Both the position numbers and the translations under genes were made by a program. The notes under the pieces are model-generated. The model had not been told where the DNA came from. It saw only the letters and a program-made list of their open reading frames with translations, and ran no database searches. A stretch of 64,000 nucleotides of DNA from Streptomyces sp. NRRL S-1022 (GTDB taxonomy: Bacteria > Actinomycetota > Actinomycetes > Streptomycetales > Streptomycetaceae), in assembly GCF_000720135.1 (NCBI RefSeq), contig NZ_JOIU01000008.1:1-64000 (forward strand), given 5' to 3'. This document shows positions 19,720 to 22,171 of this stretch, piece after piece (within the stretch, counting starts at the first letter, position 1; every line of letters begins with the position of its first letter).

Positions 19720-19983
19720 TCACACGGCGGCCTTCTTCAGGCGGCGGCGTTCCCGCTCGGACAGCCCGCCCCAGATGCCGAAGCGCTCGTCGTTGGCGAG
19801 GGCGTACTCAAGGCACTCGGAGCGGACCTCGCAGGCGAGGCAGACCTTCTTGGCCTCTCTGGTGGAGCCGCCCTTCTCGGGGAAGAAGGACTCGGGGTCG
19901 GTCTGGGCGCACAGCGCGCGCTCCTGCCAGCCGAGTTCCTCGTCCGCGTCGTCGACCAGCAGTTGCTGCACCAGCTCGGTCAT
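19720..19983 (-). CDS. whiB: WhiB sporulation regulator
   Basis: This 87-residue iron-sulfur protein is WhiB, the founding Wbl protein. It binds sigma factor region 4 and works with WhiA to commit aerial hyphae to sporulation septation. The 4Fe-4S cysteines are Cys25, Cys48, Cys51 and Cys57 (VCLACEVRSEC), followed by the turn FGIWGG and a basic tail RERRRLKKAAV. The sequence appears identical, from memory, to S. coelicolor WhiB. The start is the ATG at 19983. The long upstream region (to about 20366) carries a strong promoter at 20056-20085 and further palindromes, consistent with developmental control. S. coelicolor whiB is known to have two promoters. Confidence 0.98.
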   Translation of the reverse strand: MTELVQQLLVDDADEELGWQERALCAQTDPESFFPEKGGSTREAKKVCLACEVRSECLEYALANDERFGIWGGLSERERRRLKKAAV

Positions 19984-20085: not shown

Positions 20086-20200
20086 GCCGAGATCTGCTAT
20101 TGGGCCCGTTATTCACTCTGCGGAACCAAGGCCGTGCGGAAAGTGTTCAAATCGCCATATACCTTGACACGCAGCTGGGCCCGCGGGGGCGATCGAACCC

Positions 20201-20220
20201 CCGTACAGATCTCTGTACGG
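20201..20220. promoter_or_regulatory. perfect palindrome upstream of whiB
   Basis: CCGTACAGA (20201-20209) and TCTGTACGG (20212-20220) form a perfect 9-base inverted repeat with a 2-base centre, the shape of a dimeric repressor or activator operator. A second stem, CGGGGG...CCCCCG (20184-20203), abuts it. The binding protein is unknown. Confidence 0.45.
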
Positions 20221-20296
20221 AGAAGGACGTCTCCGTGTTCGATCGCGTTCCGCGAGGCTGGAGCGCTCGGATGTGCCCCATGTGTCCCGACCTCCC

Positions 20297-20341
20297 GGTG
20301 AGCAAACCTTTCACCGCACAGATGGACCGGATGAGGTGAAA
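20297..20341. promoter_or_regulatory. BldD-like GGTGA/TCACC repeats between whiB and the Cys leader
   Basis: GGTGA (20297-20301), TCACC (20311-20315) and GGTGA (20335-20339) form overlapping inverted repeats; TTTCACC and GGTGAAA (20309-20315 and 20335-20341) match perfectly. The layout resembles the published BldD half-site pattern AGTGA(n)TCACC, and whiB is a known BldD target. The assignment here is inference. The repeats end 25 bases before the leader-peptide promoter. Confidence 0.35.
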
Positions 20342-20366
20342 CATGTCCCACATACCGGGCCCTGAG

Positions 20367-20395
20367 TTGACAGTGCGGGTGTGAACCGGTGTCCT
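20367..20395 (+). promoter_or_regulatory. promoter of the cysteine leader peptide and cysteine dioxygenase
   Basis: A perfect TTGACA (20367-20372) is followed by a 17-base spacer and TGTCCT (20390-20395). Initiation about seven bases further on would fall at or next to the ATG at 20403, giving a leaderless leader-peptide mRNA. Confidence 0.65.
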
Positions 20396-20402
20396 AGTGG
20401 GC

Positions 20403-20498
20403 ATGCTCGCGAACTTGGCGCTCACCTTGACCCGCACCGCCGGGTCCCTCGGTGCCGCCCGCGCGCGCTGTAGCTGTTGTTGCTGTCCCAGCTGTTGA
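20403..20498 (+). CDS. cysteine-rich leader peptide (31 residues)
   Basis: This frame encodes a 31-residue peptide whose end reads CSCCCCPSC before TGA: six cysteines among the last nine residues, in a window where Cys codons are rare. A consensus promoter places transcription start at or next to its ATG, so it is probably translated from a leaderless mRNA. It lies 172 bases before a cysteine dioxygenase gene on the same strand. Poly-cysteine leaderless small ORFs that sense cysteinyl-tRNA supply are known upstream of cysteine-metabolism genes in mycobacteria. By analogy, ribosome stalling at the Cys codons would control cysteine dioxygenase. The function here is inferred; the peptide sequence is directly visible. 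Confidence 0.8.
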   Translation: MLANLALTLTRTAGSLGAARARCSCCCCPSC

Positions 20499-20609
20499 GC
20501 CGAGCCCGCTCCGGCTGTTCCCGAGTCCATACCGGCTCGGTCGCGTCTCCCCCTCAGTGATCCCTCATCCGGGGAATCCGGGGACACCCCGCACGCCCGT
20601 GACCCGGGC
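20472..20609 (+). promoter_or_regulatory. attenuator-like competing hairpins after the Cys leader
   Basis: AGCTG (20472-20476) pairs with CAGCT (20490-20494), enclosing the Cys codons. AGCCG (20498-20502) can pair with CGGCT (20512-20516), but the same bases also pair as CCGAGCC (20500-20506) with GGCTCGG (20534-20540), so the two folds exclude each other. Two GC hairpins follow, CGGGG-aca-CCCCG (20579-20591) and GCCCG-tgacc-CGGGC (20595-20609). The arrangement suits ribosome-position-dependent control. Confidence 0.45.
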
Positions 20610-20670
20610 GGACCGTACGCGTCACCCCAGCACCAGCCCCCACTCTTCCGCCGAGGACCAGCGCACCCAG

Positions 20671-21177
20671 ATGAACAGCGACAACGACCTCCAGATCGCC
20701 GGCGACATCCTCGAGGTACCGCACCTGCTCCAGCCGCCGCGCGAGCACCCGGCGACCGTCGCCGAGTTCGTGGGGCTCGCCCGGTCGATCGCCGCCGACC
20801 GCGCCCAGTGGGCCCCCCTCGTCCGGTACGACGCCACCACCCGCTGGTACCACCGGCTGCGCACCGGCCCCGGCTACGAGGTGTGGCTGCTGTCCTGGGT
20901 GCCCGGGCAGGGCAGCGGGCTGCACGACCACGGACCCTCGTCCGGCGTGCTCACCGTCCTGGAGGGCACCCTCACCGAACGCACCGAGCGCGGCACGCGC
21001 GCGCTGGCGGCGGGTTCCCAGCGGGTGTTCGCGCCGGGATACGTCCACGAGGTCGTCAACGACGCGCTGGAGCCGGCGGTCAGCCTGCACGTGTACCACC
21101 CCGGCCTGACCCGGATGCCGATGCACACCTCCCCGCACTGCGAGGCGCGCACCGGGCCGGGTGCGGTGACTGCCTGA
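20671..21177 (+). CDS. cysteine dioxygenase family protein
   Basis: This 168-residue cupin oxidises cysteine to cysteine sulfinic acid using Fe(II) and O2. The iron ligands are visible in LHDHGPSSGVLTVLEG (His85, His87) and YVHEVVND (His126). Cupin motif 1 carries the extended spacing of bacterial cysteine dioxygenases. I start it at ATG 20671; the frame is open further upstream but the codons there look non-coding, and GAGGA lies about 15 bases before the ATG. Its upstream leader peptide ends in a cysteine run, which independently supports a link to cysteine. It precedes the F420 genes on the same strand with a 34-base gap. Confidence 0.88.
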   Translation: MNSDNDLQIAGDILEVPHLLQPPREHPATVAEFVGLARSIAADRAQWAPLVRYDATTRWYHRLRTGPGYEVWLLSWVPGQGSGLHDHGPSSGVLTVLEGTLTERTERGTRALAAGSQRVFAPGYVHEVVNDALEPAVSLHVYHPGLTRMPMHTSPHCEARTGPGAVTA

Positions 21178-21211
21178 CGCATTGTCGGACCCGCCTGCAA
21201 GACTTGCTCCC

Positions 21212-22171
21212 ATGCGCATTGTGGTTCTGGCAGGCGGCATCGGCGGTGCCCGTTTCCTGCGCGGTCTGAAGCAGGCCGCGCCGGACGCGGACATCACCGT
21301 CATCGGCAACACCGGCGACGACATCCACCTCTTCGGGCTGAAGGTCTGCCCGGACCTGGACACGGTGATGTACACGCTCGGCGGCGGCATCAACGAGGAG
21401 CAGGGCTGGGGGCGGTCCGACGAGACCTTCCACCTCAAGGAGGAACTGGCGGCGTACGGCGTCGGCCCGGAGTGGTTCGGGCTGGGCGACCGCGACTTCG
21501 CCACGCACATCGTGCGGACGCAGATGCTGGGCGCCGGCTATCCGCTGAGCGCGGTCACCGAGGCGCTGTGCGACCGCTGGAAGCCGGGCGTGCGGCTCAT
21601 CCCGATGACCGACGACCGCGTCGAGACCCATGTGGCCGTCGTGCTGGAGGGTGAGCGCAAGGCGGTCCACTTCCAGGAGTACTGGGTGAAGCTGCGCGCC
21701 TCGGTCCCGGCCGAGGCGGTCGTCCCGGTCGGCGCCGAGCAGGCCAAGCCGGCCCCGGGCGTGCTGGAGGCCATCGCGGAGGCGGACGTCATCCTCTTCC
21801 CGCCGTCCAACCCGGTCGTGTCCATCGGCACCATCCTCGCCGTGCCCGGTATCCGCGAGGCCATCGCCGAGGCGGGCGTGCCGGTGGTCGGCCTCTCCCC
21901 GATCGTCGGCGACGCGCCGGTGCGCGGCATGGCCGACAAGGTGCTCGCCGCGGTCGGCGTGGAGTCCACGGCCGCCGCGGTCGCCGAGCACTACGGCTCG
22001 GGGCTGCTGGACGGCTGGCTGGTCGACACGGTCGACGCGGGCGCGGTCGAGCGGATCGAGGCGGACGGCATCCGCTGCCGGGCGGTGCCGCTGATGATGA
22101 CCGACGTGGACGCGACCGCGCAGATGGTGCGGGAGGCGCTGGCGCTGGCCGAGGAGGTGCGGGGGGCGTGA
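21212..22171 (+). CDS. fbiA: 2-phospho-L-lactate (phosphoenolpyruvate) transferase, F420 biosynthesis
   Basis: This 319-residue CofD/FbiA enzyme joins the lactyl- or PEP-derived phosphoguanylate to Fo to make F420-0 or dehydro-F420-0. The N-terminal [19 protein letters not shown] and the following [19 protein letters not shown] are family signatures, as are [16 protein letters not shown] and [13 protein letters not shown]. The ATG at 21212 lacks a clear ribosome-binding site. Its end overlaps the start of fbiB as GTGA. The pair mirrors fbiA-fbiB next to whiB2 in mycobacteria. Confidence 0.96.

Follow-up and report, generated by a model that had tools for sequence, protein, structure and literature searches.

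The cysteine dioxygenase gene CDO1 in the window, a stretch of 64,000 nt from Streptomyces sp. NRRL S-1022 (host genome 8.9 Mb), is preceded by a short leader frame that ends in a run of Cys codons. As judged by sequence comparison, this is a real, family-wide Cys leader that is conserved at the codon level. We consider it likely that the leader acts in cis by having its codons read, i.e. as a ribosome-mediated attenuator of CDO1.

The leader, its promoter and CDO1

19720..19983, minus strand: divergent WhiB-type gene (open reading frame and sequence)
20367..20372, plus strand: TTGACA, −35 element, 36 nt upstream of the leader ATG (sequence)
20390..20395, plus strand: TGTCCT, presumed −10 element, weak by consensus and mostly kept by eye in a 23-row alignment (sequence)
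20403..20498, plus strand: leader open reading frame MLANLALTLTRTAGSLGAARARCSCCCCPSC, followed by the stop (sequence; start codon at the expected transcription start)
20469..20495, plus strand: Cys-codon tract TGT AGC TGT TGT TGC TGT CCC AGC TGT with five TGT and one TGC (sequence)
20499..20670, plus strand: C-rich, G-poor gap from the leader stop to the CDO1 start (base composition)
20653..20657, plus strand: GAGGA, putative Shine-Dalgarno sequence (SD) of CDO1, 13 nt upstream of the ATG (sequence)
20671..21177, plus strand: CDO1, cysteine dioxygenase type I-like cupin of 168 residues (PF05995, 68.6 bits, cut-off 23)

The leader MLANLALTLTRTAGSLGAARARCSCCCCPSC comprises 31 codons and a TGA stop, with six Cys among the last nine residues. 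Its stop is separated from the CDO1 ATG (20671) by 172 nt. The original prediction had described this frame, and its coordinates, peptide and gap length all proved exact. The TTGACA element is followed by a 17-nt spacer, TGTCCT, a further 7 nt and the ATG at 20403. This promoter had also been predicted. Both elements are present and their spacing is nearly invariant, but TGTCCT makes a poor −10 element and a sigma-70 scan that required A at position 2 found no promoter at the leader. Since TTGACA lies at an almost constant distance from the start (35–37 nt), the leader is probably leaderless, with transcription beginning at or next to its AUG. By eye, the −10 position reads TGTCCT or TCTCCT in most of 41 loci, and the usual A at position 2 is absent. 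A strongly conserved block, ACCGGATGAGGTGAAACATGTCCCACAT (approximately 20327–20354), lies just 5' of the leader promoter and may be an operator that serves either the leader or the divergent gene, which we take to be whiB from its sequence and neighbourhood.

By family, CDO1 is a cysteine dioxygenase of type I and is predicted to destroy cysteine. Its best solved relatives are named cysteine dioxygenase (E = 2.4e-11), and its HDH, VHE and HVYHP motifs align with the solved chains; we presume these residues to be the His ligands and the Tyr of the active site. GAGGA is found in 81 of 96 close CDO1 loci, at a spacing of 12–14 nt in 88 of the 96. This spacing from SD to ATG (20653–20670) is long, yet conserved. 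We also rejected a longer CDO1 whose N-terminal part would run through the leader in a different frame: the CDO1 frame is open as far as the leader in 17 of 96 loci, and the frame offset is mixed.

The gap measures 87–193 nt in the 96 close loci and 65 nt in L133. With gap ends that are approximate outside the close set, CDO1 gaps have mean C and G fractions of 0.47 and 0.24, and 144 of 145 loci show a C-over-G skew above 0.1. The gaps before a second cysteine dioxygenase gene, CDO2 (30 of 30), and before cysM (28 of 28) are likewise C-rich, and the whiB 5' region is not (0 of 61). A C-rich gap common to CDO2 and cysM is therefore no specific sign of Rho, and we discarded a Rho site as an interpretation. 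An Rfam search returned a single chance match far below the cut-off.

Conservation across the family

The best 80 of 552 confirmed CDO loci, all from Streptomyces, carry a Cys-rich frame at the same place without exception (80/80). For a wider sample we used 150 genomes of the family with a CDO match, from 17 genera, which added 29 loci beyond the window and 39 further usable ones. The total came to 149 rows or 148 distinct places (L104 and L127 are the same place); L152, with only 228 bases, was left out, and the counts keep any species overlap between L003–L082 and the other family genomes.

A short frame with at least three Cys in its last 15 residues, following TTGACA, is present at 144 of the 148 distinct places, and no genus among the 17 is without a leader. 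At 143 of these places TTGACA is exact; L121 has one mismatch. Of the 146 tabled rows, 144 have the exact element 35–37 nt ahead of the leader start, and 144 have three to eight Cys in the last 15 residues. A Cys codon run kept in related species was what had been predicted, and its loss is not what we find. Among the places outside the 144, L103 has by eye a Cys leader with a longer tail, and L122 has two Cys. An extra CDO copy elsewhere (L104/L127) has no leader. In L139, CDO1 and TTGACA are kept, with leader start and Cys frame gone; this locus represents a natural case of leader loss.

To put numbers on chance, we combined TTGACA (at most one mismatch) 32–40 nt before a start, a frame of 10–75 residues and at least three Cys in the last 15. 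Of 1340 upstream regions of 520 nt with shuffled dinucleotides, 7 showed this combination; of the real regions (searched up to 900 nt), 132 of 134 did, as did 144 of 146 tabled rows of the enlarged set. The Cys run is thus beyond chance, as had been claimed for it. One might still suppose that conserved DNA of another function, for instance regulatory DNA of whiB or an antisense frame, merely reads as Cys codons. The region does lie between divergent genes, and an open minus-strand frame spans the leader in 91 of the 96 close loci. The scarcity of the combination in shuffled DNA, the fixed distance from promoter to start, and a Cys tail that persists in diverged DNA over 17 genera make such a by-product highly improbable.

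Outside the family, 79 genomes beyond the genus gave a match, and 14 of their CDO loci (L234–L247) were inspected. None has such a leader and, within the DNA examined, none has a WhiB motif beside CDO; one of the 14, L246, has hardly any upstream DNA.

Selection on the Cys codons

Between genera the N-terminus of the leader is unrecognizable by eye, and its length and Cys spacing vary freely; the Cys tail stays. Length changes by whole codons (28–34 codons in all but one of 98 close loci, the exception having 42). Calculated from single-base codon differences over codons 2–22, the dN/dS-like ratio of 81 leaders of the close set is 0.89. The leader Cys codons are TGT in 594 and TGC in 161 cases (79% TGT, 145 rows), as compared with 95 TGT and 688 TGC (12% TGT) in the long frames of the same loci (n = 167). 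The corresponding TGT:TGC counts are 31:57 in CDO2 leaders and 29:32 in cysM leaders, so the strong TGT bias is particular to CDO1. Because there is little constraint on the amino acids and yet a strong bias towards TGT, what looks functional in the CDO1 leader is its Cys codons rather than its peptide. The predicted poly-Cys leader before CDO1 is hence conserved and, by this measure, kept by selection at the codon level.

Alternatively, the frame could encode a functional small Cys-rich protein, binding a metal or thiols, in an operon with CDO1. A conserved frame with three to eight Cys near its end in nearly all rows would be expected of such a protein. The ratio of 0.89 in the N-terminal part, the freely varying N-terminus, length and Cys spacing, and the preference for a rare codon speak against it, and we regard it as very unlikely.

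Other Cys-bearing leaders of the genome

In the genome of the window, short leaders with Cys near their end also precede cysI, the cysM operon, a tandem rhodanese gene, metN and CDO2:

L166, 4785–4868: Cys-bearing leader before cysI
L167, 1034–948, minus strand: CDO2 leader, with its partner at 890–883 (sequence complementarity)
L168, 1123–1203: Cys-bearing leader before the tandem rhodanese
L170, 1285–1187, minus strand: metN leader MTTTSSRTRATEATMTPGARCMCRLMCRMCAF with three Cys
L171, 1530–1435, minus strand: Cys-bearing leader before the cysM/MoaD/JAB operon

Among the NCBIfam profiles, NF042934 was matched over its cut-off by the cysI, cysM, rhodanese and CDO2 leaders, and the rhodanese leader also matches NF042933 (Ms5788A family). 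No NCBIfam profile matched the metN leader, and for the leader of the window neither NF042934 nor NF042933 gave a match. A leader scan at a second rhodanese pair (C10:140k) found none. The metN leader mixes Met and Cys codons and may read cysteine, too; the available text of PMC8079986 describes its counterpart in S. lividans as the methionine-dependent metL.

Six CDO1 leaders from three other genera (L114, L115, L122, L131, L146 and L147) contain the LRRAASALC ending that, by eye, they have in common with the putative leader peptide family NF042934 (cis_reg_atten). Five of the six have extra Cys beyond CC. Five other-genus CDO1 leaders gave no match to NF042934, and L122 scored 14.5 bits, below the cut-off of 27. 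We interpret the LRRAASALC leaders of CDO1 as a form between the poly-Cys and the NF042934 types, as far as their sequences tell.

The CDO2 leader, VTDTCVRLWRRVHMDLVRYAGCVCRPSC followed by a stop, begins 35–37 nt after a TTGAC-like box. The −10 position of CDO2 reads TGTACT. Close relatives of this leader are present in 30 of 30 Streptomyces loci (L172–L201; 30 of 53 strong matches). Its peptide has a dN/dS-like ratio of 0.14, against 0.89 for the CDO1 leader. Complementarity links the final codons of the leader, CCGTCCTG, to CAGGACGG at the start of CDO2. With G-T counted half, this pairing scores at least 8 in 26 of 30 loci and in 13 of 600 shuffles; the duplex between leader and start amounts to −29.3, versus −25.0 for shuffles and −29.5 for swapped partners. 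Both sides hardly vary, so that the pairing rests on conservation and not on covariation. According to this sequence-based model, the anti-SD would be masked by a ribosome waiting on the Cys codons, which would allow translation of CDO2.

RNA structure after the leader

20489..20500, plus strand: 5' arm of hairpin P1, over the last Cys codon, the stop and two bases (covariation; MFE fold)
20508..20517, plus strand: 3' arm of P1, GCTCCGGCTG (covariation; MFE fold)
20521..20540, plus strand: predicted hairpin P2, CCGAGTC / GGCTCGG, with no T run after it (MFE fold)

The alignment of P1 comprises 76 of 81 available loci. Its 10 pairs are formed in 97.4% of cells, and the 3' arm has the consensus GCTCC[A/G]GCTG. 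In 15 cells both sides have changed, a number reached by 0 of 500 shuffles; a single A-U to G-C exchange, common to 11 sequences, accounts for most of these double changes, so that few of the events are independent. The paired percentage and the covariation score are matched by no shuffle, the count of pair types by two, and the three pairs with a double change by 33 of 500. Sliding the partner by 1–3 columns lowers the pairing to 15–45%. The five loci left out (L042, L043, L056, L064 and L066) form 8, 9 or 10 of the 10 pairs; in L043 the partner lies 43 nt on and shows a further double change. L006 and L057, which are misaligned in the set of 76, form 9 and 10 pairs with a partner 41 nt on.

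The folding energy around and after P1 is on average lower than in shuffled sequences. The 42-nt region after P1 has a mean z of −1.42 (z below −2 in 28 of 96 loci), 75 nt around and after the leader stop have a mean z of −1.92 (58 sampled loci), and a 118-nt piece of the window has a z of −1.96. No intrinsic terminator-like site was found at 20100–21250. A layout of the trp type was not recognized for the CDO1 leader, with no T-run terminator and, by eye, no antiterminator. A pairing of the first AGCTG copy with the 3' arm of P1 was rejected; by eye, it is lost when the P1 arm changes.

The leader resembles the poly-Cys leaders of mycobacteria in its design. CDO1 could accordingly be controlled by translational attenuation, a stalled ribosome masking leader RNA that otherwise sequesters the CDO1 SD. 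The leader/SD pairing of CDO2 in the same genome fits such a mechanism, as does a slightly lower accessibility of the SD than shuffled gaps give (0.202 versus 0.259; lower in 43 of 58 sampled loci). In our models, however, the SD was equally accessible wherever the ribosome stood (0.15/0.17/0.18 over 96 loci), and 93 of the 96 loci were insensitive to ribosome position at a threshold of 0.2. The duplex of the leader 3' end with the SD region (−11.9) is weaker than for mononucleotide-shuffled sequences (−17.3) and no better than for swapped partners (−11.7), and the likeliest partner of the SD lies within the gap in 93 of 94 loci. Freeing of the ribosome-binding site by a stalled ribosome, in the mycobacterial way, thus finds no support in the models for CDO1, and we consider it unlikely.

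A candidate anti-SD within the CDO1 leader was also discarded. The best duplexes use CCUCGGUG (codons 15–17) with the SD, but many loci read CCCACGG there, the SD does not follow, and the mean is no better than for shuffled or swapped sequences. With SD accessibility unchanged and leader/SD complementarity below that of shuffles, the step that would connect P1 with CDO1 expression is missing from the proposed mechanism.

Proposed mechanism

Based on the conserved promoter spacing, the Cys codons and P1 we propose the following mechanism for the preferred reading as a codon-reading attenuator. Transcription would start at or next to the leader AUG and nearly every transcript would therefore be translated from its 5' end. 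Progress of the ribosome through the TGU-rich Cys tract would depend on charged Cys-tRNA. A ribosome covers approximately 12–15 nt ahead of its position. When held at the first Cys codon (20469) it would leave P1, which begins at 20489, free to form, and on reaching the stop it would cover the 5' arm of P1. P1, with its covariation, would therefore gauge the position of the ribosome. P1 would then set the output of CDO1, by termination or by translation, in concert with P2 and the C-rich gap that follows. As a member of the set of sulfur genes with Cys leaders, CDO1 probably responds together with cysI, cysM, rhodanese, metN and CDO2.

Sign of control

We take SCO5772 of S. coelicolor to be CDO2. 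Both cysteine dioxygenases of this species were reportedly shown to be active by Dominy et al. in 2006. SCO3034 is named whiB in the available text of PMC4255298, and SCO3035 was taken as the CDO1 orthologue because it is next in number. As far as PMC4991794 is available, SCO3035 and SCO5772 rise 6.5- and 8-fold with cysteine-biosynthesis genes after H2O2. According to the same partial text, the 28 genes raised by H2O2 include SCO6094–6102, SCO4164–4165, SCO2910–2912, SCO5772, SCO3035 and metIN; the list holds cysteine-biosynthesis and sulfonate genes and also others such as SCO4498–4499, SCO6266 and SCO4881. The induction is credited there to HbpS-SenS-SenR and is absent in the mutant (PMC4991794). 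In the accessible portion of PMC4340878, cysI, cysA and cysM show a response to diamide whether NdgR is present or not. A common drop in charged Cys-tRNA would account simply for the sulfur genes on the H2O2 list, the synthesis and the destruction of cysteine then having the same sign.

The original prediction had suggested that the sign may be opposite, with expression favoured by ample Cys-tRNA. In terms of P1, ribosomes would then reach the stop and break this hairpin, turning CDO1 on, and stalled or absent ribosomes would leave P1 and P2 formed and the gene off. In favour of this arrangement, CDO1 by its family destroys cysteine, and the 5' arm of P1 sits exactly at the last Cys codon and the stop, where a finishing ribosome opens it. 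CDO1 also lacks the pairing of leader with SD that gives CDO2 its layout for expression upon stalling. In Streptomyces SCUT-3, cdo1 and cdo2 are 50.2- and 8.3-fold up on feather medium as compared with LB, according to the part of PMC7181669 available; the two media differ in much besides cysteine, and either SCUT-3 gene may be the counterpart of CDO1. Against it stands the co-induction of SCO3035 with cysteine biosynthesis under H2O2 (PMC4991794, in part).

The H2O2 data thus argue against an opposite sign and the feather-medium data point the other way. With the CDO2 leader laid out for expression upon stalling, the opposite sign is not supported as it had been proposed. We lean slightly towards derepression of CDO1 upon Cys-tRNA shortage or thiol oxidation. 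Induction of CDO1 by plentiful cysteine is a less probable but serious option, and the full switch with P1 opened by finishing ribosomes is a tentative one. It is rather doubtful that CDO1 is turned on by finishing ribosomes, and CDO2 and the biosynthetic genes by stalling, all via Cys codons. If true, a single signal, charged Cys-tRNA, would have opposite effects within the same cell by way of two RNA layouts.

Relation to known systems

The polycysteine leaderless short open reading frames of mycobacteria, reportedly described by Canestrari et al. in 2020, are the closest analogue. The CDO1 leader shares with them a short, probably leaderless frame with a conserved run of Cys codons near the 3' end, a position upstream of cysteine genes and the occurrence of several loci per genome; the predicted analogy was right in kind. 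Mycobacterial poly-Cys leaders are treated in the accessible parts of PMC4633059, PMC9031893, PMC13236596 and PMC9094748. In contrast to the mycobacterial leaders, the target of the CDO1 leader destroys cysteine, a hairpin overlaps the stop and the codons are biased towards TGT. Mycobacterial Cys attenuators hide the ribosome-binding site, whereas the CDO1 leader, in models only, has no such pairing and CDO2 has it by sequence.

In E. coli, a catabolic operon is headed by the leader TnaC, which detects free tryptophan by means of an arrest peptide. Like the CDO1 leader, it precedes an amino-acid-degrading gene; unlike the arrest peptide, the CDO1 peptide is conserved only in its Cys codons. 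The tna operon is mentioned in the available text of PMC1262725, where Cys leaders are proposed for mycobacteria and two other species and none for Streptomyces. The S. lividans leaders in the accessible part of PMC8079986 are, like the CDO1 leader, short, mostly transcribed leaderless and rich in the regulatory codon, and the list of eight leaders given there has no Cys or CDO leader. In the literature outside subscription papers, our search found nothing relevant that connects a leader peptide with cysteine dioxygenase in Streptomyces.

CDO1 and CDO2 form a matched pair in one genome; their leaders differ in RNA layout and in what selection keeps (only the Cys codons for CDO1, a conserved peptide for CDO2). 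This pair is suited to testing how the position of a ribosome becomes gene control. Cys-codon leaders are known on mycobacterial cysteine genes, and here one stands, family-wide, on a gene that destroys cysteine. This raises the question why an oxidizing cell would destroy cysteine while making it. Since the same kind of sensor sits on a cysteine-destroying gene, the synthesis and the destruction of cysteine may answer to one tRNA-charging signal.
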